A stretch of DNA of 38,329 bases. It comes from a virus. Of the stretch, positions 386 through 29,928 are shown one piece after another. Every line of letters starts with the position of its first letter. The stretch's first letter is position 1. The notes beneath the pieces were generated by a model. The model saw only the letters and a list, made by a program, of their open reading frames with translations, ran no database searches and was not told where the DNA came from. Both the position numbers and the translations under genes were made by a program. The DNA is taken from positions 1 through 38,329 of the IMG/VR virus record IMGVR_UViG_3300009610_000056, one strand, 5' to 3'.

Positions 386-729
386 GCAAGCGCAATCAGA
401 ACTTCGATATGTATATCGGTGAAAGCAAGGTGGTTTTCATCGCGCTCACCAATGCAGACGGCACGCCGTTCAATCCGGCTGGCGCGACGATGGAATGGTG
501 GTTGTCGCGGACTGTACATTCGGAAAAAACCATCAGGAAGACGCTTAGTTCGGGTCTCGCGATATCGCCGGGCGGTGTGAATATCATTCTTGAGTCGGAG
601 GATACCTACGACCTCAAGCCTGAAATTTGGTACCACGAACTAAAGATCACCATGCCAAGCGGGCTGTCGGTTGCGACGGTCGGCGCGGTGCATCTGCGGC
701 CCGCGCTGGATATGCGGGTGACTCCGTAA
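382..729 (+). CDS. Small beta-rich phage protein, paralogue of the 31615-31959 gene
   Basis: The product is 115 residues, starting at GTG 382 and overlapping the upstream stop by four bases. The sequence alternates hydrophobic strands (KVVFIALTNADGTPFNPAGA, TMEWWLSRT, GVNIILE, YHELKITMPSG, ATVGAVHLRP) and looks all-beta. The order 'strand, N/AGTPxN, G-x-T-M-E-W/M' is also seen in the 114-residue product at 31615-31959, so the two are probably paralogues. The fold resembles small N-terminal beta domains of phage baseplate or receptor proteins (BppU-like), but this is recognised by pattern only. Its stop overlaps the start of the giant gene (TAATG), so the two are likely translated together. 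Its exact role is unknown. Confidence 0.7.
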   Translation: MSKRNQNFDMYIGESKVVFIALTNADGTPFNPAGATMEWWLSRTVHSEKTIRKTLSSGLAISPGGVNIILESEDTYDLKPEIWYHELKITMPSGLSVATVGAVHLRPALDMRVTP

Positions 730-3700
730 TGCTTGAGGTCACCCCCAAGGAGTTTTTGGAAGGTCTCAGGGAGAAGCACACCCCCGGCGGCCATGAGCAC
801 GATCAGCAGAGTCACGCTGGCGGTGGCGGTGGCGGCGATAAGGATGAAGGCAGTAGGGATAGCGGCGACAGGGACAAGCCCAAATCCGACTACGGCCTGA
901 GGCCGGGCGATGCTGCGAAGTTCAGGGGGCTTAAGGCCGAGTGGGCGCAGATCAATAACAAACTGCTGGAGCACATCGATAAGCCCGACAGTCCCCAAGC
1001 GCAGGCGCTGTCGCGTGAGTTGGAATCCACCGTGCAGGCGATGCAGAAGCTGCGTGCTGATCCGGGCACGCCTGCCGGGATCGGGTTGCCGGGTGGCCCG
1101 CGCGACGTGGTCATTATCGGCGCAGGCCCCGGAGGGTTGGCCGCCAGCATCAATAGTGCTGCGGAGGGCTTGGATACGTTGGTGATCGAAGCCAATGCCG
1201 TGCCGGGAGGGCAGGCAAAGTTTTCGTCGCGCATCGAGAACTTCCCCGGCTTTCCGGTCGGCATTACCGGCGAGCGATTGACGCAGAATATGTTTACGCA
1301 AGCGCAACGGTTGGGGGCCGAGGCCCAGCTAGGCGTTCGCGTTACGGGGATGACTCACGATGCGAGCACGGGGCTAAAGCATCTCACGCTGTCCAATGGC
1401 CAGACGATTGAAAGCCGTACAGTCATCATGGCTGGCGGTCTTGAATTTCGCCGTGTGCCGTTCCCCGGCTCTGATGGACCGGGCGTTATTGTTGGCGACG
1501 GCAAGGCGCTCGCAGAGGCAGGCAAAGGCGGCACTGTCTGTGTGGTCGGTGGCTCCAACGGGGCGGCGCAGGCGGCACTCGGTGCCGCGCAAAATTGCGA
1601 TCATGTTTATGTGCTGGCACGCTCTCCTATCGTTGGGAGCATGAGCGATTATCAAATCGAGGCACTGCGTAGCAATCCCAAGATCACGGTGATCGAGAGC
1701 GACACCATCTCCAAGCTTTGGCGCGATGAGCAGGGCAATCCCCAGAGGCTCGAAACGGCCAATGGCCAGAGCTTTCCGGTGAAGGCGGTTGGACAATTTC
1801 TAGGAAGCGTGCCGGAAACGAAGTGGTTGCCTGCGGAGATCATGCGCGACAAGGGCGGCAGGCTCCAGACCGATTCAAAAACCCTAGAGACAGGGATTCC
1901 GGGTGTCTACGCGATAGGTGACGTTCGGGCAGGGGCAATCGGGCGCGTCGGTATTTCTGTCGGTGAGGGCCAGTTGGCGCTGCGGGAAGCAAACGTCCAT
2001 TTGGAGTCGCTGCGGAAAAAGGTTGAGGGTGAGAGCGCTACCAAGGCGTACACCCCTCCACCCATTTCAACCTTAATTGCCGATCTCTTTACGCTGGATC
2101 GTGACGAGCCTTGGTTCGGTCAGACCGTTGAAGGCGTAAAGCCGCCAGAGCCGAAGAAGGCAAAATCTTTAGACGAGGTGTTCAAGCACACCCCCGGCGG
2201 CCACGAACATGATCAGTTGAGTCACGGCAGGGGCGGTGACGGCGGCGGCGATAGCGACAGCGGCAAGGGCGACCATCCCGGCAAGGGCTACACGGCGGCG
2301 GCCTACGTCAAGAACGGCGTGATCCACACCAAGAGCGTCTACGACGCCCAGCGTGCGTTGCATGAAGATCGCAAGGTCCAGCTTGACCAGCCGCGTAAGG
2401 TGTCGGTGCTGATACAAAAGCTCGGTGAAGTCAGCAAGAGGATGATCGAGAAGGGCGAGAAAGCGCCCGTGTTCAATCTATGCAACGTCGGCGTCAAGGG
2501 CACCAACTTGTTCTGCGCCGACACCAAGGGCATCCCACGCGTGGAGATGCCGCAGCTTGATGAGCAACAGACCAAGGACTTCCAGAAGTACCTTAAGTCC
2601 GAGGGCTACAAGATCAGCAAGGAAAAGCAGTTCGCTTCGCACCTTCGTGCCACGCAGAACGAATTGAACGGCGGCAAGGTCGCGCACGGCGCGGAAAAGA
2701 TCAAAGAGAACGGTGGCAAGGTTAAGTCGATCATCGTCTCGGATGACGACTACATCCTCGACGGCCATCATGCTTGGGCGGCCAAGCTCGGTCTCGACGC
2801 CGCAGATAACAAGCTTGAGAACGACACCAAGATGCACGTCGTTCGCGTCGATATCAAAATCACCAAGCTGCTGGAAGAGGCCGACAAGTTCACGGGTGGC
2901 AAGGGCCGCAAGGGCGTGGATGAGTCCGCCAAGTCTTTCAATATCGGTGAGGTGTTCCGCGACTGGGATGAGAGCGAGCATCCCCGCGATGAGGATGGCA
3001 AGTTCGGTTTCGGCGGCGGTGGCGGCGATAGCAGCGAGCGGCCCGGCTACGAGTTCGTTTCACCCAACGTTGGCGAGCTTAAATTTGACGGTGCAGTGAA
3101 GGAGCTAGGCAGCGCCCGGCAAGGCGTCCTGAACGACGCGACGAAAGATATCAACGAGCAGCTAGACATTACAGCCACGCACTTTGACGTTGTTGGCGCA
3201 TGGAAGGATGGTGCTGAAAACTCAACAATGGCGGTTACTAGGGACTCTGACTGGGAGAAAATGAAGCTCAGCGTGTCGATGCGGGGCTGGGTGGCGGACC
3301 AGAAGTCGGTGTTGATTTTCCAAGAGAATGACGAGCACGATAGCGTGCTGGCACATTTCGAGGCACAAGGAAACTTGACAGAAATCCACGCCAACTTGCT
3401 TGCGGATGGTATAGAAAACCATACATTAGTACCGACTGCCACTGGTGCGACCGTCTACGTTGCGGACCTTGAGAACAACCAGTCAGAGGCAATCAAACAG
3501 GCGGCATTGCGTTATGGCGAAGACAACAAAATCGATGTCTACTTCGGGCGCGGCGAGTTCGTTGGAGCGCCTTATGACTTCCAAGGCTCAGACCGGGAAG
3601 CGCGAGACGCCGCGCGAGAGATATACGAAGCTAATATCGAACGATCCCCAGTTCCGGGCAGCAAAGAAATCTGGCAAGGGGTTCATGATCGGTGGGGTAA

Positions 3701-6389
3701 AGCCCTCGCGGAATCCGACACCTCGCTAGCTTCCCGGACGATCTTCGTCCGCCCCAATTTCCTCAGAGCGTTCAAGGCCCTCACCGAAGCGCTGGCTGGC
3801 GGTGTGCAGATCGTTGCCTATGAGGGCGAGCACATCCCCGGCACCGAACTGATCGACCTTTCCGAATGGGAAGATCGCAGGATAGTTCACCGGGCCGAAC
3901 CGAAAACGCTCTACGTCAACCGTCCGCTGGTTAACGCCAGCGAGGTCATCGACTGGGCGAAAAGCCAAGGCTTCGAGAAAACTATCACTGCCGACGACAT
4001 GCACGTCACGGTAGCCTTTAGCCGTGCGCCGGTCGATTGGGATGAAGTGAGAGACAACACTTCAACGATCACCATTGAGCCGGGCGGCAAGCGCAGCGTT
4101 GAGCGACTGGGTGAGGATGGCGAAGCGGTCGTGCTGCGGTTTGAGTCGCAGGCTCTGACTGATCGGTGGCAACAGATTGTCGATGCCGGTGCATCGTGGG
4201 ACTACGAGGACTACAAGCCGCACGTCACCATTTCGTTTGACGCTCCAGACATCGATGTTGACTCCATCGAGCCGTATGCCGGTGAACTGGTGTTCGGTCC
4301 TGAGATTTTTGCTGAGTTAAAGGAGGACTGGAAAGACACCATCACCGAGAAGCATACGCCCGGCGGGCATGAACACGACCAGCAAAGTCACGCCGGTAGC
4401 GGCGGCGGCAGCGAGAAGGATGATGAAGGTAGGGGCGAAGGTGAGGGCAAGACACCAGAGCCTTCAGCGGAAGCGATGGCTGTCGGCGGCGACGAATGGA
4501 ATAAGCAGACCGCAGAGCGGCTTGAAAAGGAATACGTCGAAGCAGAACCGGCGCTGAAAAAGATCGTGAGCGATGCGCTTAATAAGGACGCTCAGGTCGA
4601 AGAGCCGCCCGAAGCCCCAGACCCAGACAGCGCTCCGTTCGTGCCGGATGAATGGGCGTCGATGAGCGAAGATCAGCAGGAATATGTATTCACGGATTGG
4701 AAGGCGCACACCCAAGACTCGTACTATCAAAGCGAGGTCGAAAGCTGGCAGGAGAATAGCGCGACCGACGATGCTGGTAATCAATTGGAGTATGAGTTCG
4801 GTCAGGGCGAAAACACCGAATGGGCTGAGAGCGCCATCTCGGATTTCATAGATGACAACGAGGGAATCCCGTTCACTAAGGAGCAGTTGTTTGCCGCGCT
4901 ACTCGTTACCTACGAGGGCAGCGGATACAACGACTTTCATAAAGGGCTGGAGATTTCCTTCGATGACAGCAAACTAAAGCCCGAAGGGTTTGATGACGCA
5001 CCGACGCTTCCGGGGATCGAGCCGCAAAAGCCAGAAGATTTTTTGACGAAGGAAATGCGCGAGGGGCTGACCAAGGAACTGAGTAAGGCTTTCGCCAAGG
5101 AAGGCGAGAGTGTGCTGGATAAGTTGGAGCCGCCAGACTACCTCAACGAGTCGGTTGCCGAATATCAGGAGCAGTCGTGGAGCGAGATGAGCGACAAAGA
5201 GAAGTTCGCTTTTGCCGAAGCCCATAGCGATGTGATCAAGAATTTGCAGCAGGAGTACGACGACTATTTCGGAGATAAGCCGGGCACTGGTGCGACTGGT
5301 ACGTTTTATATGCCGAACAAACTTGATCCAATGCAGGAAGGAAACAGTTCTTCGGATTACACCGCGACCCAGAAGGTCGCTCGGTATCTATCGGTTGAAC
5401 GGGCCGCGCAAGTCATGGTGGAGCGCGGAGCGTATGACAGCGTGGAGAAGGCCCGTGGCGATGCCACGCGGATGGATAACATGCTGTGGAACGGCTGGAA
5501 GGGATCGTCCACCAGTATAGAGGGCCAGTTGTTGCAGAGGGCGACGGCTGATGAACTCGGCGGCAGATTAAATCCGGCAATGGTTACCCTCAATCCGACG
5601 GGCGTTCCCGGTTATGCGCCGAACGCCGCGCCCGGTAAAGCCTACGACGCCGTCAAAGCCTATGTGCGTGGCAAGTGGGAAACCTCGCAGTTCATGCTGA
5701 AGAAGGCCGGTCTTGAAACCGTCGAGGTTTATCGGGCGATCAACATCCCGGACTCGGTGAAGCCAACCATTACGAACATTATACCTGAGCCTGACACTGG
5801 CGGGATTGCGCCGGGGGCTGCGGTCAGAACGGTCAAGACGTTCGACACGATAGCGGAGGCTGAGAGGTACACAGAAGATCAGGCCGCCAAATACGGGAAG
5901 GACTATTCTGGTTTTGTTGATAAGTTTCACAACGTCTATCAAGCGCACAGCACCAACAATTTTCCAGATCGGGAAAAAGCAGAAGCCTTCGTTCAGAAGT
6001 ACACGACTGATCCAAACAACCCGGAGCAGCATCGCGAAACGGTTGGTACTCCACCGGAGGACTTGGGCGGTGGCTACACACACATGACGCATTTTGAGCG
6101 GCTTCCCGATATGCACATTGACCGCAACGGGGCGGCGTCAGCGACGACAAACCGGACGGTCGCCAATGCTTGGGATGGCAACGCCGGTCGCGTTGTGTTG
6201 CGGGCGTCGGTGCCTCGCACCGCTGTCGTCTCGGTGCCAGCCTACGGCATCAACGTGCAGGGTGAGCATGAGGTTGTGATCGCTGGCACGGCATGGAAGG
6301 GTTGGGATGCTTGGGCTGGCACCGCACCTGAGTTCGACAGGATCAAGATCGGTCATCAGGTCGTCGGTGACCCGCGAGCGGAGGCGTGA
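729..6389 (+). CDS. Giant multidomain effector protein: TrxR-like, ParB-like, Acb1-like 2H phosphoesterase, ADP-ribosyltransferase
   Basis: 1886 residues. The start at ATG 729 is chosen because it overlaps the preceding stop (TAATG); a longer in-frame start at 627 lies inside the previous gene. Order: His/Gly tag (16-29); NAD(P)/FAD oxidoreductase of thioredoxin-reductase type (about 124-432) with GAGPGG at 131-136, GGSNGAA at 274-280 and GD 397-398, but no CxxC; second tag (486-499); ParB-like domain with YILDGHH at about 675-681; DWDESEHPRDEDGKFG tag from 745; unassigned region (760-1000); 2H phosphoesterase (about 1058-1201) with HVT at 1092 and 1165, matching Acb1-type anti-CBASS domains; third tag (1208-1221); acidic helical region; C-terminal ART with R1669, S1804 and E1846-H-E1848. 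It precedes a second ART gene and the capsid protease gene. Packaging in the head and ejection are inferred. Each enzyme's substrate is unproven. Confidence 0.85.
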   Translation: MLEVTPKEFLEGLREKHTPGGHEHDQQSHAGGGGGGDKDEGSRDSGDRDKPKSDYGLRPGDAAKFRGLKAEWAQINNKLLEHIDKPDSPQAQALSRELESTVQAMQKLRADPGTPAGIGLPGGPRDVVIIGAGPGGLAASINSAAEGLDTLVIEANAVPGGQAKFSSRIENFPGFPVGITGERLTQNMFTQAQRLGAEAQLGVRVTGMTHDASTGLKHLTLSNGQTIESRTVIMAGGLEFRRVPFPGSDGPGVIVGDGKALAEAGKGGTVCVVGGSNGAAQAALGAAQNCDHVYVLARSPIVGSMSDYQIEALRSNPKITVIESDTISKLWRDEQGNPQRLETANGQSFPVKAVGQFLGSVPETKWLPAEIMRDKGGRLQTDSKTLETGIPGVYAIGDVRAGAIGRVGISVGEGQLALREANVHLESLRKKVEGESATKAYTPPPISTLIADLFTLDRDEPWFGQTVEGVKPPEPKKAKSLDEVFKHTPGGHEHDQLSHGRGGDGGGDSDSGKGDHPGKGYTAAAYVKNGVIHTKSVYDAQRALHEDRKVQLDQPRKVSVLIQKLGEVSKRMIEKGEKAPVFNLCNVGVKGTNLFCADTKGIPRVEMPQLDEQQTKDFQKYLKSEGYKISKEKQFASHLRATQNELNGGKVAHGAEKIKENGGKVKSIIVSDDDYILDGHHAWAAKLGLDAADNKLENDTKMHVVRVDIKITKLLEEADKFTGGKGRKGVDESAKSFNIGEVFRDWDESEHPRDEDGKFGFGGGGGDSSERPGYEFVSPNVGELKFDGAVKELGSARQGVLNDATKDINEQLDITATHFDVVGAWKDGAENSTMAVTRDSDWEKMKLSVSMRGWVADQKSVLIFQENDEHDSVLAHFEAQGNLTEIHANLLADGIENHTLVPTATGATVYVADLENNQSEAIKQAALRYGEDNKIDVYFGRGEFVGAPYDFQGSDREARDAAREIYEANIERSPVPGSKEIWQGVHDRWGKALAESDTSLASRTIFVRPNFLRAFKALTEALAGGVQIVAYEGEHIPGTELIDLSEWEDRRIVHRAEPKTLYVNRPLVNASEVIDWAKSQGFEKTITADDMHVTVAFSRAPVDWDEVRDNTSTITIEPGGKRSVERLGEDGEAVVLRFESQALTDRWQQIVDAGASWDYEDYKPHVTISFDAPDIDVDSIEPYAGELVFGPEIFAELKEDWKDTITEKHTPGGHEHDQQSHAGSGGGSEKDDEGRGEGEGKTPEPSAEAMAVGGDEWNKQTAERLEKEYVEAEPALKKIVSDALNKDAQVEEPPEAPDPDSAPFVPDEWASMSEDQQEYVFTDWKAHTQDSYYQSEVESWQENSATDDAGNQLEYEFGQGENTEWAESAISDFIDDNEGIPFTKEQLFAALLVTYEGSGYNDFHKGLEISFDDSKLKPEGFDDAPTLPGIEPQKPEDFLTKEMREGLTKELSKAFAKEGESVLDKLEPPDYLNESVAEYQEQSWSEMSDKEKFAFAEAHSDVIKNLQQEYDDYFGDKPGTGATGTFYMPNKLDPMQEGNSSSDYTATQKVARYLSVERAAQVMVERGAYDSVEKARGDATRMDNMLWNGWKGSSTSIEGQLLQRATADELGGRLNPAMVTLNPTGVPGYAPNAAPGKAYDAVKAYVRGKWETSQFMLKKAGLETVEVYRAINIPDSVKPTITNIIPEPDTGGIAPGAAVRTVKTFDTIAEAERYTEDQAAKYGKDYSGFVDKFHNVYQAHSTNNFPDREKAEAFVQKYTTDPNNPEQHRETVGTPPEDLGGGYTHMTHFERLPDMHIDRNGAASATTNRTVANAWDGNAGRVVLRASVPRTAVVSVPAYGINVQGEHEVVIAGTAWKGWDAWAGTAPEFDRIKIGHQVVGDPRAEA
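774..815 (+). repeat. Linker-tag repeat, copy 1
   Basis: This is the first copy of a 42-bp coding repeat for a 14-residue tag, KHTPGGHEHDQQSH, followed by a Gly-rich run. It lies near the N-terminus of the giant protein, before the flavoprotein module. Copies 2 and 3 differ by silent changes and one Q-to-L change. Confidence 0.9.
2184..2225 (+). repeat. Linker-tag repeat, copy 2
   Basis: This is the second copy of the His/Gly tag (HTPGGHEHDQLSH), again followed by a Gly/Asp run. It separates the flavoprotein module from the ParB-like module of the giant protein. Confidence 0.9.
4350..4391 (+). repeat. Linker-tag repeat, copy 3
   Basis: This is the third copy (HTPGGHEHDQQSH, then AGSGGGSE). 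It lies directly after the 2H phosphoesterase module and before the acidic region and ART module. Its codons differ from copies 1 and 2 at several third positions, so the protein sequence rather than the DNA appears to be conserved. Confidence 0.9.
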
Positions 6390-7617: not shown

Positions 7618-9753
7618 ATGCCAAGCCCATCAGAATATGAGAACGAGAGCGATTTCGTCTCCGCTTGCATCTCGGCGCGGCAGCACGAAAACCCCGATGA
7701 GGATACTGAACAGAGCGCCGCAGCGTGCTATGCAGTATGGCGTGAGAAGGGGGCCAAGCCCGTGATCCGTAAAACGCATGAGACCCTTGCCGTCGAGAAC
7801 ATGGAGTTCGTCCTGTCGGACGCGACGGTTGATCGGTACGGCGATAGTGTGGATTCGGGTGGCTGGGTCTTGAACGATTTCAAGAAGAACCCCATCGCGT
7901 TGTTCAACCACAACCCGGACTTCCCTATCGGTCGCTGGAAAGATATTAGCGTTCGCAACGGCGCGCTGCGCGGCCATCTTCAGTTGGCACCGAAGGGAAC
8001 GAGTCCGAGGATCGATGAGATCAGGGCGCTGGTCGATGCCGGTATCCTGTGCGCGACCAGCGTCGGCTTCCTTCCGTTAGAGGTCAGCCCGCGCACCAAT
8101 AAGTCAGGCAACGGAAATTTGTATTCCAAGCAAGTGCTGGTCGAGACCAGTCTGGTCGCGGTGCCAGCCAACCCCAATGCCCTAGCGATTGCGAAGTCGC
8201 TCAGGGTTTCCGGCGGAACGATGGAACTGGTCTTCGCCAAGCAAGGCGTCATGGGATCGGTGACAAAGTCTCACGGGTCAAACGGCAAGCCAGCCGAAAA
8301 CGGGACTACTCATAAAAGGACCATGACCATGGTTCCTATCAGTAAACGTATCGAAGAAACCGAGCAGCGGATCGTCAAGTATCAGGATGAACTCGACACG
8401 CACATGGCGACCGTGGACGACTCGAACCCCACGGAAGAGGCGCTGACCATCACCAAGGAACTGACCGAGAAGATCGAGAAGCAGCAGGCGTCCCTCGAAA
8501 GCCTTAAGAACGTCGAGGTGAGGCTTGCGACTGCGACGGTCAGGGCGAACATTGATACGAAGGCCAGCGGCAATGGCACCGGGACCGCCATGGTCGTTCA
8601 CAACGCTCGCCCGTTTGCGTACCCGGCCAAGAAGATCAGCCCGCTCGATCACCTCTGGCGCGGTGTGACCGTCGCGCTGAAGCACCACGATATGAAGAGT
8701 CAGCAGTCCATCTTTGACGTGCTGCGCTCGACCTATGGTGAGAACGAGTACAGTGAGCAGACAAGGGCGGTGATGGCCAACTTGGTCACGAAGGCGGCGG
8801 CGATTCCTGCCGACACCGTGACGACAGGTTGGGCCGTTGAACTGGTGCAGACTGTCATCGGGGACTTCATCGCGGCGCTGATGCCGCTGTCGATCTACCC
8901 GAAGCTTGCTGCCAAGGGAGGTTCGTTCACCTTTGGCCGCAACGGCACCATCTCGCTGCCTTCCCGCAACACGACGGCCACTGTTGGTGGAGCCTTCTTC
9001 CTTCAGGGTGCCGCGATTCCGGTGAAGCAGGGTGCGTTCACTGCGATCACTCTCACCCCCAAGAAGATGGGTGTGATCACCACGCTGACCCGCGAGATCA
9101 CTGAACACTCGACGCCCTCCATCGAGGGCATCGTGCGGCAGGCGATCTTGGAGGATACCGCTCTGGCGATTGATACCATATTGGTTGATGCCAACGCGGC
9201 GACGACCATCCGGCCCGCCGGTCTGAAGAACGGTGCGACGGTTGTCACGCCGACTGCTGGTGCCGGTATCACTGCGTTGATCGGTGATTTGAGGGGCCTC
9301 ACATCTTCTCTGATCACTGCCTCGAAGGGCAACCTTCGTGCTCCGGTCTGGATCATGAACCCCGGCGATGCGCTTGCGGCTCAGTTGACGCAGGCGGCTG
9401 CTGGCGGCGACTTCCCGTTCATGGACGACATCACGAATGGCACTTTGATGGGCTATCCGGTGATCACGTCCACGACGATTGCTCCGGACTCCATGATCCT
9501 CATGGATGCCGCCGACTTCATCAGCGCGACCGGCGATACGCCGCGCTTTGATGTCAGCGATCAGGCTGTTCTCCACATGGAGGACAGCAACCCGCAGCAA
9601 ATCTCCACGGTCGGTACCCCGGCCACGGTTGCTGCGCCGGTTCGTTCGCTGTGGCAGACCGACACCATCGGTATCCGCATGATCATGGATATCAACTGGG
9701 CCATGCGTCGGACTGGGATGGTTCACACCGTCACAACGATGACTTGGAACTAG
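7618..9753 (+). CDS. HK97-type prohead protease fused to major capsid protein
   Basis: 711 residues. Residues 1-45 form a small helical Cys motif. Residues 50-215 match HK97-family prohead proteases (NMEFVLSDATVDRYGDSVDS, LFNHNPDFPIGRW, CATSVGFLP, LVAVPANPNALA), with likely catalytic H98 and S148. Residues 238-340 contain a charged coiled coil of the type that serves as the scaffold (delta) region. From about 345 the sequence is an HK97-fold capsid protein (LMPLSIYPKLAAKGG, LPSRNTTATVGGAFF, PVWIMNPGDALA). In most phages protease and capsid are separate genes; here the frame is continuous. The protease should cut itself and the scaffold away during maturation. A strong ribosome site inside the frame suggests that capsid protein is also made alone. 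Confidence 0.93.
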   Translation: MPSPSEYENESDFVSACISARQHENPDEDTEQSAAACYAVWREKGAKPVIRKTHETLAVENMEFVLSDATVDRYGDSVDSGGWVLNDFKKNPIALFNHNPDFPIGRWKDISVRNGALRGHLQLAPKGTSPRIDEIRALVDAGILCATSVGFLPLEVSPRTNKSGNGNLYSKQVLVETSLVAVPANPNALAIAKSLRVSGGTMELVFAKQGVMGSVTKSHGSNGKPAENGTTHKRTMTMVPISKRIEETEQRIVKYQDELDTHMATVDDSNPTEEALTITKELTEKIEKQQASLESLKNVEVRLATATVRANIDTKASGNGTGTAMVVHNARPFAYPAKKISPLDHLWRGVTVALKHHDMKSQQSIFDVLRSTYGENEYSEQTRAVMANLVTKAAAIPADTVTTGWAVELVQTVIGDFIAALMPLSIYPKLAAKGGSFTFGRNGTISLPSRNTTATVGGAFFLQGAAIPVKQGAFTAITLTPKKMGVITTLTREITEHSTPSIEGIVRQAILEDTALAIDTILVDANAATTIRPAGLKNGATVVTPTAGAGITALIGDLRGLTSSLITASKGNLRAPVWIMNPGDALAAQLTQAAAGGDFPFMDDITNGTLMGYPVITSTTIAPDSMILMDAADFISATGDTPRFDVSDQAVLHMEDSNPQQISTVGTPATVAAPVRSLWQTDTIGIRMIMDINWAMRRTGMVHTVTTMTWN
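8314..8331 (+). promoter_or_regulatory. Internal ribosome binding site and ATG for capsid-only product
   Basis: AAAAGGA (8314-8320) lies eight bases before an in-frame ATG (8329) at residue 238 of the protease-capsid fusion; another ATG lies at 8323. The position is between the protease domain and the scaffold coiled coil. Starting there would give a 474-residue protein, a usual size for an HK97-type capsid precursor. This could supply the excess of capsid over protease that assembly needs. Seen: the site. Inferred: its use. Confidence 0.6.
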
Positions 9754-10339: not shown

Positions 10340-10762
10340 ATGGCTGACGTAGTACCAACCGCGCACCCGTTGGGCGGAATGACTGAAGCGCAGCGTCAGG
10401 CGGCGCTTGAGGCGAACAAGAACGCGAGGGAGGCCCGCGAGAAGAAGGCTAAGGAAGCCGAGGCCGACGTGAAGGCTTTCCGGCAGGAGCGGGAGAGGAC
10501 CAACGCCGAAGCGATGGAGCGGCAAAACAAGACAAAGCCGACACCGACGCAGGAAGAAACGGACCTTGCCGCTGTTGGCAAGCTGACCGAGGAGCATGAG
10601 TGGGACGGTTCGCCGCCGCAGGGCGTGAACCACGAGGATGCGGTCGCCGCCGCGAAGTCCTACAAGCAGCCGGAAGACTCGGCCTATATCGGCGCGAAGC
10701 AGATCGAGGCAGGCAAGGGCGCTCAGTACAAGACGCGCTCAGCGACTCCAGCGAAGCCCTAA
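10340..10762 (+). CDS. Helical protein sharing the decoration-protein tag
   Basis: 140 residues, with an AGAGGAGA ribosome site before ATG 10340. Residues 12-65 are a highly charged Ala/Glu/Lys helix, probably a coiled coil (AQRQAALEANKNAREAREKK). Residues 66-92 repeat the tag KPTPTQEETDLAAVG and HEWDGSPPQ from the preceding protein. The C-terminus is short and polar. The stop overlaps the portal start (TAATG). It lies between decoration and portal genes, so a minor head protein is likely, perhaps one that docks through the shared tag. No known family is recognised. Confidence 0.7.
   Translation: MADVVPTAHPLGGMTEAQRQAALEANKNAREAREKKAKEAEADVKAFRQERERTNAEAMERQNKTKPTPTQEETDLAAVGKLTEEHEWDGSPPQGVNHEDAVAAAKSYKQPEDSAYIGAKQIEAGKGAQYKTRSATPAKP
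10534..10572 (+). repeat. 39-bp direct repeat, copy 2
   Basis: This second exact copy of the 39-bp repeat at 9885-9923 encodes the same KPTPTQEETDLAA segment, followed in both proteins by a diverged spacer and then HEWDGSP. Confidence 0.9.
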
Positions 10763-12177
10763 TGGCCAACTGGCTCGCCAAGATTGCCAGTCCGTTTATC
10801 GGCAAAGCCACGGAGGGTCAGCCTAAACCCGGCCCGTGGCTGTTGCCGGTGACGGGCGGCTGGCTTCCTGCGGATGTCGGCAGCAACTGGAATTGGTGGC
10901 AGCTTGGGTACGACGCTGAGAGTTATTCGCCGTCGGCGCTGGTCGAGGCTTGCGTATCGGCCTACTCGCAGACGGTGGCGATGTGCCCCGGCGACCACTG
11001 GCTGTCTACCGGCGACGGTGGACGTGAGCGGATCACGACCTCGGCGCTTTGCCGCATCCTGCGGAAGCCGAATGAATACCAGAGCATTTCGGATTTCCTG
11101 CTCAACGCGGTGCGGTGGCTTTACCTGAACGGCAACGCCTACGCGCTGTGCGAGCGCAACAGCCGGTACGAAGTCAGTGCCCTGCACTTGATGGACTCAC
11201 GCGCATCCGCGCCCATGGTGTCTGTGACCGGCGACGTGTTCTACCAGCTTAGCGGGAACGTGGTGACCGACAGGTTGATCGGTGATCAGCTTATTGTCCC
11301 AGCCCGTGACGTGCTGCACATCAAGTTGCAGACCAGCCGCTACGATATCCTGAAGGGCGAGAGTCCGCTGTGCGCGGTGGCTCGCGACATCGCGCTGACC
11401 GACAGCATGGTCGCGCAGCAATACAAGTTCTATTCCAATCAGGCCCGGCCCGGCGTCACGCTCTCGACCGACATGGTGCTGACCAAGGAGCAAGTTGAAC
11501 TGGTCAGGCAACGCTGGGACGAGCAGTCGAAGGGGCTTGGTGCCGGTGGCACGCCCATCCTGACCCAAGGGTTGAAGCCGGTTGCGATCCCTCAGCAGAA
11601 CGCAGAAGAGATGCAACTCGCCAACGTGCTGAAGCTGGCTGATCAGCGTATCGCCTTGGCGTTCCGTATCCCGTTGCAAATCCTAGGGTTGGGCGGCGGT
11701 TCCGGTGCGGCGACCGAAGAACTGATGCGGGCATGGATTGCGTCGGGCCTTGGCTTCTGTCTCAACCACATCGAGGAGTCCATTGGGTTGTTCTTCGGCC
11801 TCAAGGGACAGCCCGACGAGTACGTCGAGTTCGATACAAGGGCGCTGCTGCGGTCGGCTTTCGTGCAGCGCGTCGAGGGTTACACGCGCGGCGTTCAGGG
11901 TGGTATCTTCTCACCGAACGAAGCGCGAGCGGAATTTGAAATGCCGGAAGTTGAAGCCGGTGACGAACCCCGTGTCCAGCAGCAAGTTGTGCCGCTCAGT
12001 GCGGCGAATGCAATACCAGCGGCACCTCCAGCGCCCCCAGCGCCGTCGTCGCCGCCAGCGGCTGCTTCGGAGGAGGAGGCCCCGAAACCAGAATCGAAGG
12101 GCGTGACAGATGCCGATGAACTTGAACGCATCCGGCGATCTTTCTTCGCTTCCCAAGCCAGTAACCTCTCCATTTGA
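10762..12177 (+). CDS. Portal protein, HK97 family
   Basis: 471 residues. ATG 10762 overlaps the previous stop; a longer frame from 10600 runs inside that gene and is rejected. The sequence follows the HK97/phage-portal family: ALVEACVSAYSQTVAMCPG near the N-terminus, LLNAVRWLYLNGNAYALCER, DVLHIKLQ, ARDIALTDSMVAQQYKFYSN, and FRIPLQILGLGGGSGAATEE. The portal is the dodecameric ring at one head vertex through which DNA enters and leaves. The C-terminal 60 residues are a Pro/Ala-rich tail and a short charged helix. In most HK97-type phages the portal gene lies upstream of protease and capsid; here it is downstream, with no terminase in view. Confidence 0.93.
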   Translation: MANWLAKIASPFIGKATEGQPKPGPWLLPVTGGWLPADVGSNWNWWQLGYDAESYSPSALVEACVSAYSQTVAMCPGDHWLSTGDGGRERITTSALCRILRKPNEYQSISDFLLNAVRWLYLNGNAYALCERNSRYEVSALHLMDSRASAPMVSVTGDVFYQLSGNVVTDRLIGDQLIVPARDVLHIKLQTSRYDILKGESPLCAVARDIALTDSMVAQQYKFYSNQARPGVTLSTDMVLTKEQVELVRQRWDEQSKGLGAGGTPILTQGLKPVAIPQQNAEEMQLANVLKLADQRIALAFRIPLQILGLGGGSGAATEELMRAWIASGLGFCLNHIEESIGLFFGLKGQPDEYVEFDTRALLRSAFVQRVEGYTRGVQGGIFSPNEARAEFEMPEVEAGDEPRVQQQVVPLSAANAIPAAPPAPPAPSSPPAAASEEEAPKPESKGVTDADELERIRRSFFASQASNLSI

Positions 12178-16046: not shown

Positions 16047-16634
16047 GTGGCTGAGTGGGTTGTCTATTGGCTGCATGACGCCTACTGCATCTGCTTGCAG
16101 CAGCACGGCTATGTCGGCATCAGCGGCGCTTGGACGACAAGACTAGCGAAGCATCAACGCAACAAGCGCTTTCCGCCTAACTTCGAGTGGTCGATCATCT
16201 TCACCGGCACGAAGGCCGAGTGCTTGGCGATGGAGCATACGCTGCGACCGGTGCCGGGCGTCGGTTGGAATCAGGCGCAGGGCGGGAAGCCGGTTGTTGA
16301 GTTCACCTTGGAGGTGCGGGCGCGGATGAGTGCGGCGGCGCTGAAGCGGCGAACACCAGAGCAGAGAGCGGCTGAGTCGGCTGCTGCACAAGAGGCGAGG
16401 CGGTCTGGCGCGTGGAATGAGAAGTTGCGTAAGGCAAGCATGGGGCAAGTTCATAGTGAAGCGTCACGGCGTAAGCATAGCGCATCAACAATTGGTGTGC
16501 CGAAGTCTGAGGCACATCGTGCAGCGATGAGTGCCGCAGCAAAGATGCGCTACACGAAAGCAGGCGAGCGTGAAAGAATGAGTGAAGCTGTCAAAGCGGG
16601 CAAGGCTCGCATCAATCTCATGAAGGAGAAATGA
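16047..16634 (+). CDS. GIY-YIG homing endonuclease with NUMOD-type repeats
   Basis: 195 residues, GTG start two bases after the previous stop. Residues 5-80 fit a GIY-YIG nuclease: VVY (5-7) and YVG (22-24) replace the name motifs, R32 and H36 follow, a helix carries E63, and GWNQAQGG ends the domain. Residues 95-190 hold repeated short helices with S-E-A-x-R-R-K/A-x-S-A elements (SEASRRKHSAS, SEAHRAAMSAA), typical of NUMOD3-type DNA-binding segments. The gene splits the usual gp38-sheath pair and is more A+T-rich in its second half than its neighbours, so it is a selfish insert. Its end supplies the sheath ribosome site (AAGGAGAA) and overlaps the sheath start (ATGA). Confidence 0.85.
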   Translation: MAEWVVYWLHDAYCICLQQHGYVGISGAWTTRLAKHQRNKRFPPNFEWSIIFTGTKAECLAMEHTLRPVPGVGWNQAQGGKPVVEFTLEVRARMSAAALKRRTPEQRAAESAAAQEARRSGAWNEKLRKASMGQVHSEASRRKHSASTIGVPKSEAHRAAMSAAAKMRYTKAGERERMSEAVKAGKARINLMKEK

Positions 16635-18220
16635 AAATGCCTATCTCGTTTTCCAGCATTCCACAAAATTGGCGCATGCCCTTATACTGGGTGGAGGTTG
16701 ATCCATCCAAGGCTGGCTTCCCGACGTTTCCCGGTCGCTCTATGTTGATCGGAACCATGAACCCGGCTGGCGCGACTGGAGGGTCTGCCGCATCCTTGGT
16801 CCCGGTGCCGGTGGCTTCGCAGGCACAGGCGGATGCCTACTTCGGTCCCGGCTCGATGCTTGCCTGTATGTTCCGCACCTACTTCGCCAACAACTGGGCG
16901 AACGAGGTTTGGGGCCTGCCTTATCCAGATGTGACCGGCAGCGCCACTGTCAGAACAATCACGATTGGAGGGACGACAGCAACCAGCGCTGGCACTGTCG
17001 ATCTCTATATCGCCGGGCAGATTGTGCAGACTTATGTTGCGGCGGGGGCTACGGCTGCTGCCATCGCAACAAGCATTGCGGCTGAGGTTAACAAGATCAA
17101 GAGTCTGCCGGTCACGGCATCGGCGGCGACCAACATCGTTACCCTGACTACCAAGTTCAAGGGCACCGTCAGCAACGAGGTCATCGTTACAGATAATTAC
17201 TACGGCACGGTCGGCGGTGAGATGTTGCCTACTGGCATTACACTGACTTACCCCGCACCGACGCTCGGTACTGGCGATCCGACGCATCAGAATCACCTCG
17301 ATGCAATCTTGGCGCTTGGCGAATCGTCCGTCGATTGGGTCTGTTTGCCGTTCACTGATCCGACATCGCTGACTGACTGGGAGGCCGAGTTCGGTTTCTC
17401 GGACACGGGACGGTGGGGATTTATCCGCCAGCACTACGGGCAGTTGTTTAGTGCAAGGCGTGGGACATCAGCCACTCTCTGCGAGTGGAGTGATCCGGCT
17501 ATTCCATCAAGCGATGTTCGCAACAGTCCTCATTTGTCGGTGCTGGGGATCGAGGGGCCTACCGCAGTTCCCGGTACTATCGGGAGTCCGACGCCAGCCT
17601 ACGAGTGGGCGGCGGCGTACACCGGCAAGGCGGCACGCGCCCTGCTCAACGATCCGGCGCGTCCGTTGCAGACGTTGTCACTGGATGGCTGTTTGCCTGC
17701 GAAGGGAAACGAGCGTTTCCTGTTGTCGCAGTTGAATCAGCAAGCCTACGCGGGCATAGCCACGCAGCGCACGATGACCACGGTCCCGGTGATCATGCGG
17801 GAAACCACGACGTACACCAAGAACCTGTATGGCAACACCGACGACGCCTACGAGCTTGTCACCACGATGGCGACGTTGACGAAGCTTCTCCGCAACCAGC
17901 GGCACGCGATCACCAGCAAGTATCCGAGGCACAAGCTGGCTGACGACGGCACCCGGTTCGGTGCCGGTCAGGCTATTGTGACGCCGAAGATCATCAAGGC
18001 TGAGCTTGTCGCGCAGTACCGGATCGATGAGTTCGTCGGTCTGGTGGAGAACGGCAAGGCGTTCAAGGAGAACCTTATCGTGGAGCGCGATCCGAACGAT
18101 CCGAACCGGATTAACGTCTTGTACCCGCCTGATCTGGTGAACGGACTCCGCATCTTCGCCGTGCTGGCGCAGTTCAGGCTCCAGTACAATCGTGGGATTG
18201 ATACGGAGATCGCCGCTTAG
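16631..18220 (+). CDS. Contractile tail sheath protein (Mu gpL-like)
   Basis: 529 residues, starting at ATG 16631 or 16637 after AAGGAGAA. The beginning (PISFSSIPQNWRMPLYWVEV) and end (NGLRIFAVLAQFRLQYNRGI) are the family's conserved ends. Between them lie an inserted Ser/Thr/Ala-rich beta domain (about 100-185, GTVDLYIAGQIVQTYVAAGA) and the conserved core (GRWGFIRQHYGQLFSARRGT, LLNDPARPLQTLSLDGCLPA). The sheath polymer contracts to drive the tube through the host envelope. Its presence shows that this is a myovirus with a Mu-type tail. Confidence 0.95.
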   Translation: MKMPISFSSIPQNWRMPLYWVEVDPSKAGFPTFPGRSMLIGTMNPAGATGGSAASLVPVPVASQAQADAYFGPGSMLACMFRTYFANNWANEVWGLPYPDVTGSATVRTITIGGTTATSAGTVDLYIAGQIVQTYVAAGATAAAIATSIAAEVNKIKSLPVTASAATNIVTLTTKFKGTVSNEVIVTDNYYGTVGGEMLPTGITLTYPAPTLGTGDPTHQNHLDAILALGESSVDWVCLPFTDPTSLTDWEAEFGFSDTGRWGFIRQHYGQLFSARRGTSATLCEWSDPAIPSSDVRNSPHLSVLGIEGPTAVPGTIGSPTPAYEWAAAYTGKAARALLNDPARPLQTLSLDGCLPAKGNERFLLSQLNQQAYAGIATQRTMTTVPVIMRETTTYTKNLYGNTDDAYELVTTMATLTKLLRNQRHAITSKYPRHKLADDGTRFGAGQAIVTPKIIKAELVAQYRIDEFVGLVENGKAFKENLIVERDPNDPNRINVLYPPDLVNGLRIFAVLAQFRLQYNRGIDTEIAA

Positions 18221-27272: not shown

Positions 27273-28376
27273 ATGCCATGGTCAACTCCCTCGCTGCGTT
27301 CGGTTCGCGAAACGGTTCGGGGTGAGATCACCACGAGCTTGGGTCGCGCATCGTTCGTCAGCAATAGCGTGCTGCGTGTCATGGCCGATGCCATGGCGGC
27401 GCTGGCTCATCTGACCCTGCGCTACATTGACTGGCTGGCACTTCAATTAATGCCGGACACCGCCGAGAGGGAGTGGCTCGACCGGCACGGCGACATCTGG
27501 CTGGTCAACGCCGATGACACCACGGGCCGTAAGCTGGGAGCGCTTGCTTCGGGTCAAGCGACGGTGACGGGCGTCGATGGGATCGCGGTCCCCGTCTCGT
27601 CCCGCCTGACCAGCAGCGATGACTTGCAGTACGAAACGACGGTCGAGGTCTTGGTGACTCCAACCGGAGTCCCTGTCCCGGTTCGTGCTCTCAGTTATGG
27701 GCGTGACGGCAACCGTTTCCCCGGCGATGGGCTGCAATTTGTAGAAGCCATCAGCGGCGTTGACGGGCAAGCAGTGGTCATCGTGGTCGATGGTGGAGCC
27801 AATGCGGAAACCGACGATCAGTTGCGCCGACGCATCCTGCAACGCATCCGCAATCCGCCCATGGGCGGTTCGGCGGAAGACTATGTCCGGTGGGCGTTGG
27901 CGTGCCCCGGCGTAGACCGCGCGTGGGCCGAGGCGGAACAGGGGCCAGGCACCATCACGGTGCGGTTTCTGATGGACCCGGAAGACCCGGCCTATGAAGA
28001 AAGCAAGGGCTGGCCGACATCGGAAGACATAGAAGAGGTCAAGGTTTACATCGACAAGATGCGTCCGGTCACCGTCATGGACTGCTATGTGTTCGCTCCG
28101 ATCCAGCAGTACCTCAGCATCACAATTGCTGATCTCGTTACAGTCCCGGATACCGTAGCCGCGAGAACCGCCGCGAAGACCGAGATTGAAGCCAGCGTCG
28201 AGCGCATGCTGTTCGCCAACGCTGCACCGGGGCAAACGATCTATGCGGCGTGGATCAGCAACGCCATCCTGAATGCGCCCAGCGTCCAGTCGTTTGAGCT
28301 TGTGACCACGGATGACTTTGTCATGGAGTCAGTCGGTCACATGGCAGTCCTAGAAACGATACTCTACGATGAGTAA
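27273..28376 (+). CDS. Baseplate J-family wedge protein (Mu gp47-like)
   Basis: 367 residues. ATG 27273 is used; the longer frame from 27147 lies in the gp46 gene. Baseplate-J blocks are clear: WLDRHGDIWLVNADDTTGRK, ASGQATVTGVDGIAVPVSSR, ETDDQLRRRILQRIRNPPMG and GSAEDYVRWALACPGVDRAW. The end has the conserved helix and strand (GQTIYAAWISNAI). The protein forms the baseplate wedge core (T4 gp6 analogue). The stop overlaps the gp48 start by eight bases. Confidence 0.92.
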   Translation: MPWSTPSLRSVRETVRGEITTSLGRASFVSNSVLRVMADAMAALAHLTLRYIDWLALQLMPDTAEREWLDRHGDIWLVNADDTTGRKLGALASGQATVTGVDGIAVPVSSRLTSSDDLQYETTVEVLVTPTGVPVPVRALSYGRDGNRFPGDGLQFVEAISGVDGQAVVIVVDGGANAETDDQLRRRILQRIRNPPMGGSAEDYVRWALACPGVDRAWAEAEQGPGTITVRFLMDPEDPAYEESKGWPTSEDIEEVKVYIDKMRPVTVMDCYVFAPIQQYLSITIADLVTVPDTVAARTAAKTEIEASVERMLFANAAPGQTIYAAWISNAILNAPSVQSFELVTTDDFVMESVGHMAVLETILYDE

Positions 28377-29928
28377 CGACCGGCACGTTCGCAGGAGCGG
28401 GTCGGATTATCAGCACGCCTTCATGGCGCTGCTGCCGCAGGGCGAGGCATGGCCGCGCCAACCGGGAACGCTGCTGTACAAAGTCTGTGCCGGGCTTTGC
28501 GAATACTGGGGGGTTGTCGATAGGCGGGCCGCCGACTTGCTGGAGCAAGAGAGCGATCCGCGTATCACGCTTGAACTGTTACCGGATTGGGAACGCAACT
28601 GGGGCCTGCCTGATCCTTGCTACGAAGCACCGCAGACCATTGGCGAACGTCAGCAGGCACTGGTCACGCGGATGACACTGCTCGGCGCTCAGTCGCGCGA
28701 GTTCTTTATCGGGGTTGCCGCCAGTCTTGGCTACACGATCACGATCACCGAGTACCGGGTGTGGGTCGTCGGGATGGATCGCTGCGGCGACAGCAGAACC
28801 GATAAAGATTTTGCGCCTGATCCCATGGTCAATGAGTGGGGTCAGCCAATCATGAACGCGAAGGGGGATAAGGTTTATGACCCCGACGTAGACGGCGAAC
28901 TATCCGGCTGGCCGCAGTACGGGCTTGGCCCTCCATCCAACCGTTTCTATTGGACCGTTCATGTCGGATCACTCGGCCTGATTTGGTTCCGGGTTGGCGC
29001 AGGCGGCGGACAAACCGGCGTCGATCCTCATTTGCGTATTAAAATTGCCGAAGATTTGGCGTGCCTGCTCAACCGCTGGAAGCCAGCGCACACCGAGATC
29101 ATCTTCGATTACTCAGATGTCTCGCCGCCAGAGATCGATGCGGTGTTGAATCCGGTCCCGGAGAACTCCGCACTCGGCACCGTGGTCGGGACGTTCTCCA
29201 CCGTGAACAAGTTCACCGGCACGCCGGTTTACACTCTGACCAATAACGCGGGCGGTAGGTTCGCGATCACTGGCAACGATCTGACCGTTGCTGGTGCGCT
29301 CGACTTTGAGGCCGGTGCTTCATACGGGATCGCGGTGACGGTCAGCGGCGTCGATCCGGTGGTTACGGACATGCCCAAGGTATACACCGTCACGGTAACG
29401 AACGTCGCTGAGCCGGTATGGGTGACGACGTTTACCGCGACCTTTGTTGGCGACAGCCCCGATGTCTTGAACGGCGTCAATAACAGACAGTCATTGGTGG
29501 CCGGACTCTTCAGTGAAAGCGGGACCAAGTTCAGGCTGACGCTGCAATCCGGCAGCGGCGCTGAGGGTATGCGGGTCGATAGCATGTATGCCGGTCATGC
29601 GGCGTCTGGCGCGGTTCAAAACTTCGACGGCACTCAGGTTCAGATTACGGTCGGCGGGTTGTCGGCGTTCACCGTCCCGGCGAACTCCAGCGTCGTCACC
29701 GATCCAATCGACTATGCTTTCGACAAGACAAAGAACTTCTTGATAGCTTGGCACTGTGACAGCGCGGCCAATGACGTAGTGCGCTACAATGATGCCATGA
29801 GCGGCGCGGAGCGGTGGTGGAAAACGTCTGCCAGCGAGGCGTCGGCCACCACCGTCACCGGCTACTTTAATCGCTCCAGCCTTCACTACTTCATCGGCAA
29901 GATCGAGGTCTGGACGTTAAAACTCTAG
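28369..29928 (+). CDS. Mu gp48-like wedge protein fused to Ig/cadherin-like and C-terminal beta domains
   Basis: 519 residues, coupled to gp47. Residues 1-245 are a Mu gp48 / DUF2313 protein: SDYQHAFMALLPQGEAWPRQ, ERNWGLPDPC, TIGERQQALVTRMTLLGAQS, and CLLNRWKPAHTEIIFDYS. A usual gp48 ends here. Residues 250-345 are a cadherin-like repeat (DAVLNPVPENSALGTVVGTF, then DFEAGASYGIAVTVSG). Residues 350-519 are another all-beta domain (TTFTATFVGDSPDVLNGVNN, ending RSSLHYFIGKIEVWTLKL). The extension would project receptor-binding or fibre-anchoring domains from the baseplate wedge. Confidence 0.87.
   Translation: MSNDRHVRRSGSDYQHAFMALLPQGEAWPRQPGTLLYKVCAGLCEYWGVVDRRAADLLEQESDPRITLELLPDWERNWGLPDPCYEAPQTIGERQQALVTRMTLLGAQSREFFIGVAASLGYTITITEYRVWVVGMDRCGDSRTDKDFAPDPMVNEWGQPIMNAKGDKVYDPDVDGELSGWPQYGLGPPSNRFYWTVHVGSLGLIWFRVGAGGGQTGVDPHLRIKIAEDLACLLNRWKPAHTEIIFDYSDVSPPEIDAVLNPVPENSALGTVVGTFSTVNKFTGTPVYTLTNNAGGRFAITGNDLTVAGALDFEAGASYGIAVTVSGVDPVVTDMPKVYTVTVTNVAEPVWVTTFTATFVGDSPDVLNGVNNRQSLVAGLFSESGTKFRLTLQSGSGAEGMRVDSMYAGHAASGAVQNFDGTQVQITVGGLSAFTVPANSSVVTDPIDYAFDKTKNFLIAWHCDSAANDVVRYNDAMSGAERWWKTSASEASATTVTGYFNRSSLHYFIGKIEVWTLKL

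Follow-up and report, generated by a model that had tools for sequence, protein, structure and literature searches.

Fusion of the prohead protease to the capsid protein is already known. ORF003 of PAJU2 is annotated in its sequence record as a 'prohead protease fused capsid protein', and for MD8 the protease, scaffold and capsid functions have been described in one gene (PMC8508860). These genes, of the PHROG 617 type, combine an S78-like protease, a scaffold-like helical region and an HK97-fold capsid in one ORF, as does the gene analysed here. They have been published, however, as a single product or as an autocatalytic polyprotein, with no mention of an internal start or of hairpins in the papers found. 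HK97 has the same order, protease then scaffold-capsid, but its gp4 and gp5 are not fused; they are adjacent separate genes, similarly to the split relatives considered below.

The nearest precedent is lambda nu3 inside C, where the record places nu3 (5132–5737) within C (4418–5737). There too, an in-frame gene is nested in a protease gene and yields extra copies of the C-terminal part, with a shared stop codon. The nested product of lambda, on the other hand, is the scaffold only, the capsid protein E being separate, whereas that of the window (the whole 38,329-nucleotide stretch of viral DNA analysed here, IMG/VR record IMGVR_UViG_3300009610_000056) comprises scaffold and capsid. Because the nested product includes an HK97 capsid domain, the window gene is a variant of the lambda-type (C/Nu3) nested head genes and not a member. 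Herpesvirus UL26/UL26.5 similarly combines a protease-scaffold fusion with an abundant free C-terminal part, but a transcript of its own supplies the short form, and the capsid is a separate protein. Neither an internal capsid start in fusions of this kind nor the hairpin pair described below was reported in the open-access literature that we searched; these two features thus seem to be undescribed, although subscription papers, including the original PAJU2 report, were outside the scope of the search and priority is uncertain.

The fused gene and its probable internal start codon

The features of the head gene, of which the initial annotation had singled out the single frame and the ribosome-binding site between the domains, are as follows.

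7618–9753, plus strand: fused prohead protease, scaffold domain and HK97-type major capsid protein; ORF of 711 aa without internal stop
7882–8190, plus strand: Peptidase_S78 protease domain (aa 89–191; Pfam)
8314–8320, plus strand: Shine-Dalgarno (SD)-like AAAAGGA, 8 nt before ATG 8329
8329–8331, plus strand: internal ATG (M238), conserved start codon of the putative free capsid protein, from comparison with relatives
8329–9753, plus strand: nested CDS of the putative free scaffold-capsid protein, 474 aa; a separate gene in split relatives
8935–9558, plus strand: HK97-type capsid domain, Phage_capsid (aa 440–647; Pfam)

Both of these points are borne out. The S78-type protease and the HK97-fold capsid domain share a single unbroken frame, which is what defines the PHROG 617/PAJU2 fusion, and the match to phrog_617 (aa 62–710, E 5e-86) extends over both protease and capsid parts of the 711-aa protein. 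AAAAGGA and ATG 8329 do lie between the protease and scaffold domains, at the boundary of linker and scaffold. AlphaFold modelled the fusion poorly as a whole (mean pLDDT 40), which ruled out a fold search; within the model, a low-confidence linker (aa 208–239) is followed by long predicted helices (241–265 and 273–315, pLDDT about 80), a layout consistent with M238 opening a scaffold-like domain, as far as such a model can be trusted.

We consider the best explanation to be that two products would be made in one frame, the full-length fusion (711 aa) and a free capsid protein (474 aa), and give this reading a probability of roughly 0.87; expression has not been shown. Initiation at 7618 would produce the protease-scaffold-capsid fusion, and a second ribosome entry at AAAAGGA and ATG 8329 would produce the free scaffold-capsid protein that forms most of the shell, with the capsid part of the fusion molecules bringing their protease into the procapsid. 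In the absence of expression data, production of the two proteins in this phage is an inference, and so are their ratio (many capsids, few proteases) and the role of the fusion in protease delivery, the last two from established HK97-type assembly.

In the window sequence alone, the internal site is modest. Two in-frame ATGs follow AAAAGGA, at 8323 (M236) and 8329 (M238). The first, at a distance of only 2 nt from the SD, lacks conservation, one relative (L031) having ATA there, and 8329 is thus the relevant codon. The SD duplex energy is −5.5 kcal/mol at 8329, and the protease ATG reaches −6.4; among the 50 in-frame ATG, GTG or TTG codons of the ORF, 7 score as well as 8329 or better. This is weak evidence, and the case for a functional site depends on the relatives.

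The surroundings of the gene were also inspected. Just upstream of the head genes (627–6389) lies an unusual giant fusion, an ORF of 1920 aa with a pyridine nucleotide-disulphide oxidoreductase domain, an Acb1 anti-CBASS domain (aa 1093–1237, E 5.5e-44) and further unknown parts. The portal gene (10600–12177) is downstream of the capsid gene, and tail sheath and baseplate wedge proteins, encoded at 16631–18220 and 28369–29928, indicate a contractile-tail phage.

Fused and split relatives

Scans of IMG/VR and GTDB genomes yielded 94 usable capsid genes of the same family (family 1), the GTDB members being from Bradyrhizobium, Sphingomonas, Ensifer, Devosia and Lichenifustis. A scan of genome contigs with the single window protein as query found no relatives; an alignment-based scan of such contigs found 20 loci in Alphaproteobacteria. 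The sequences are mostly metagenomic contigs, and states recur in independent samples (L007/L008, L009/L010). In all 94 homologs the aligned codon is a start codon, ATG in 93 and GTG in one (L106), and M238 is invariant in alignment A1 within an otherwise variable linker. A script made part of the choice of start codons around the expected position; A1 and the split genes are independent of it.

The ribosome-binding site is supported in the same way. Among 79 distinct fused genes, the mean SD energy is −7.0 kcal/mol at the internal start as against −2.1 (sd 0.73) for codons separated from it by more than two positions. For 29 representatives below 65% identity, the mean of −4.8 compares with −3.7 for synonymous recodings, and only 1 of 1000 recodings was as low. 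Not every gene contributes: 7 of these 29 fail to beat their own control codons, and some fused relatives have a weak or no recognisable SD (L087 and L091 at 0; L049, L093 and L099 at about −0.5).

The fusion itself also appears to be maintained, which would mean that both products matter. The linker frame is open in 79/79 distinct fused genes, the other two frames in 40 and 46, and local frame slips around the downstream hairpin H2 (L044, L105, L058–L066) are compensated so that the overall frame is restored; an open frame with compensated slips argues that the fusion is kept alongside the internal start. As a caveat, a random stretch of 40 codons in GC-rich DNA is open with a probability of 0.35, and the fused genes had been selected for openness.

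Ten family-1 relatives have separate protease and capsid genes and can be regarded as natural experiments. In each, the capsid gene begins at the codon aligned with M238, and in two of them (L005, L007) an in-frame stop lies only 4–6 codons upstream, so close that hardly any alternative start is possible. In the tree, these split relatives form three clades nested among 84 fused sequences, which requires at least three changes. The parsimonious reading is that a pre-existing, working internal start would have let the fusion break several times.

A second, distant family, about 26–28% identical to the window protein, includes PAJU2, coliphage JLK-2012, Salmonella phage SP-016 and Rhizobium phage RHph_X2_26, all four of which carry an SD and an internal ATG at the corresponding boundary (PAJU2 M197 with AGGAGG, JLK-2012 M193, SP-016 M190, RHph_X2_26 M200). 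Over 59 distinct fused genes, the SD energy averages −8.8 at the internal start and −2.3 elsewhere, and for 28 representatives none of 1000 recodings was as low. The starts in these representatives are ATG in 26, GTG in one and TTG in one; replacement of Met only by codons able to initiate is what selection for initiation predicts. Splits occur here as well, in 8 members compared with 59 fused ones (at least four changes in the tree), and in three of them (L170, L173, L174) the stop lies 3–12 nt before the capsid start.

Some individual relatives show further features of this region. A terminator-like hairpin with a T run occurs inside the open fused frame, about 20–45 nt before the internal start, in L172 and L160, and between the protease and capsid genes in L161, L183 and L195. 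In Stenotrophomonas phage SOVA965 (L136, 2132–3537), where the protease is separate, the capsid annotation consists of two overlapping CDS, each named 'major capsid protein', which suggests a frameshift or a sequence error.

Comparison within both families thus shows that the internal start is conserved, that its ribosome-binding site is selected and that relatives start a separate capsid gene there, all of this at the level of sequence. A conserved internal start and ribosome-binding site at a domain boundary are the mark of a nested head gene, and the window gene bears it. The internal start for a free capsid protein that the initial annotation had put forward is accordingly supported, without expression data, by start codons in 94/94 homologs, SD enrichment and split relatives, and its suggestion to compare the site among fused relatives was met in family 1 and in every fused member scored of the second family.

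Two other explanations have to be weighed against these data. Only the full-length fusion might be translated, as a capsid polyprotein from which the protease cuts itself off. This has been proposed for PAJU2, whose protein (P85500), according to the Nocturne116 paper (PMC8306868), has been entered as a capsid polyprotein with proposed autocatalytic cleavage, and the MD8 paper treats the whole as a single gene product without mentioning an internal start (PMC8508860). The protease domain also keeps catalytic-type residues, His98 and the SVGF motif (S148) being invariant across the aligned fused relatives. Such a scheme, on the other hand, leaves unexplained a conserved start codon with GTG and TTG variants, a selected SD and splits that begin exactly there, and it would place a protease on every capsid subunit. 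We regard it as improbable as the sole mode of expression; autocatalytic cleavage may be additional to the internal start. It is also conceivable that the start merely survives from a time when the ancestral capsid gene stood alone, that the fusion is recent and that it alone is now in use, and the start shared with split relatives would fit this. The fused state, however, is the widespread one with the splits nested within it (84 fused and 10 split with three changes; 59 and 8 with four), and a leftover would not persist across families at 26–80% identity, which makes this explanation very improbable.

A hairpin pair upstream of the internal start

The region between the protease domain and the internal start contains two short hairpins, which the initial annotation had not pointed out.

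8236–8247, plus strand: hairpin H1, GCC-AAGCAA-GGC, six-base loop, about 93 nt upstream of the internal ATG
8284–8295, plus strand: hairpin H2, GGC-AAGCCA-GCC, six-base loop, about 45 nt upstream of the internal ATG

H2 is present in 31/31 representatives of the window gene's part of family 1 (below 65% identity, splits included) as against 0.8% of control stretches. Where it is coding, its codons are fixed as GGC, NNG and GCC (43/43 GGC, 43/43 GCC and 42/42 G, for which codon usage would predict 25.9, 14.2 and 24.6, respectively), and in split relatives it is non-coding and stands in a varying frame relative to the capsid start. The peptide that it encodes, G-[EK]-[HPQS]-A, was considered as a conserved protease cleavage site and rejected as the main cause, since the DNA is kept where it is non-coding or frame-shifted and third codon bases are fixed.

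H1 was located by its protein motif, independently of pairing, and its arms are complementary in 50/50 fused genes (GCC/GGC in 27, GGC/GCC in 21, GTC/GAC and GCC/GGT in one each). The switch between Ala..Gly and Gly..Ala has occurred at least five times, each time altering two amino acids with pairing kept. The covariation score of 0.364 compares with 0.096 in shuffles, of which 0/500 were as high; paired cells are at 100%, and sliding abolishes the signal. In family 2 and the MKTIAEQI group, hairpins with the loop GCGNNN occupy the same place. Of the GGCG anchors, 46 of 52 in the junction have all four positions paired, compared with 33 of 977 in the capsid ORF; stems include GCCG/CGGC, CCCG/CGGG, GTCG/CGAC, GCTG/CAGC, ACCG/CGGT and TCCG/CGGA. 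As judged from these alignments, H1 and H2 are shown to be constrained at the level of nucleic-acid pairing.

The two loops also match within each phage: across 29 representatives with both hairpins, the mean distance is 1.17 compared with 2.28 (sd 0.17), and 9 pairs are identical where 1.4 are expected, a trend also seen in family 2 (5 against 1.7, p 0.01). The permutation corrects only in part for shared ancestry, and matching loops could also arise by local duplication or by gene conversion. Matched loops would also be expected of take-off and landing sites in programmed bypassing or frameshifting that joins protease and capsid. The fused genes, however, have no stop or frame change between H1 and H2, and in the splits a jump to the repeat still hits a stop before the capsid ATG (L005, L006) or lands out of frame (L010); bypassing of the T4 gene 60 type, in which the jump restores the frame around a stop, is thus not met, and we find this explanation scarcely credible.

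No excess of hairpin copies was found outside the junction and none elsewhere in the window, and a dispersed repeat was rejected on these grounds. New IMG/VR matches to the double-hairpin pattern all lie at a protease-capsid junction except two (L129, L131), which have no capsid nearby; the 12-mer by itself occurs frequently in GC-rich bacterial genomes and is not diagnostic. Rfam 15 gave no gathering-threshold match in the window and elsewhere only weak matches far below the gathering score, and hexaloop hairpins are absent before HK97 gp5, lambda nu3 and E, and D3 orf6.

Copy number varies at some junctions. Three or four copies (GEHA/AEHG codons) instead of two are found around L126 5727–5777 and L130 52–102. 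In seven splits (L005, L006, L010, L043, L045, L007, L011), a short insert upstream of the capsid gene contains the stop codon of the protease and has extra hairpin copies on either side, as if cassettes had entered at the hairpins.

What the hairpins do is a matter of hypothesis. We place them in the leader of the capsid gene as nucleic-acid elements; action as RNA and a role in capsid translation are inferred, in that H1 and H2 in the mRNA might tune initiation at the internal start or bind a phage protein. A more specific proposal, which we offer only tentatively, is a new regulatory RNA element whose hexaloops are read by a co-evolving phage-encoded protein (possibly capsid or protease), setting internal initiation and the protease-to-capsid ratio. 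Alternatively, and likewise compatible with the dual start, the hairpins could act not as RNA structures but as operators in the DNA, serving for instance an internal promoter or a repressor. Symmetric half-sites would co-change as well, and there are no transcript data. H1 and H2, on the other hand, often swap arms within one phage (GCC-loop-GGC and GGC-loop-GCC) around the same asymmetric loop, whose third base is always G, an arrangement that a DNA dimer site could hardly tolerate. We thus view operators as rather unlikely.

Capsid dosage and annotation

The hairpin pair represents a strong pairing signal within a coding region, in which changes in pairing force changes in amino acids, and it lies at a junction that needs dosage control. 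Databases list genes of this kind as single capsid or protease proteins, and the N-terminus of the capsid protein is thus probably misannotated across a large group. Furthermore, the literature that we found offers no explanation of how phages with the fused gene escape having a protease for each capsid subunit; the conserved nested start would provide the answer.
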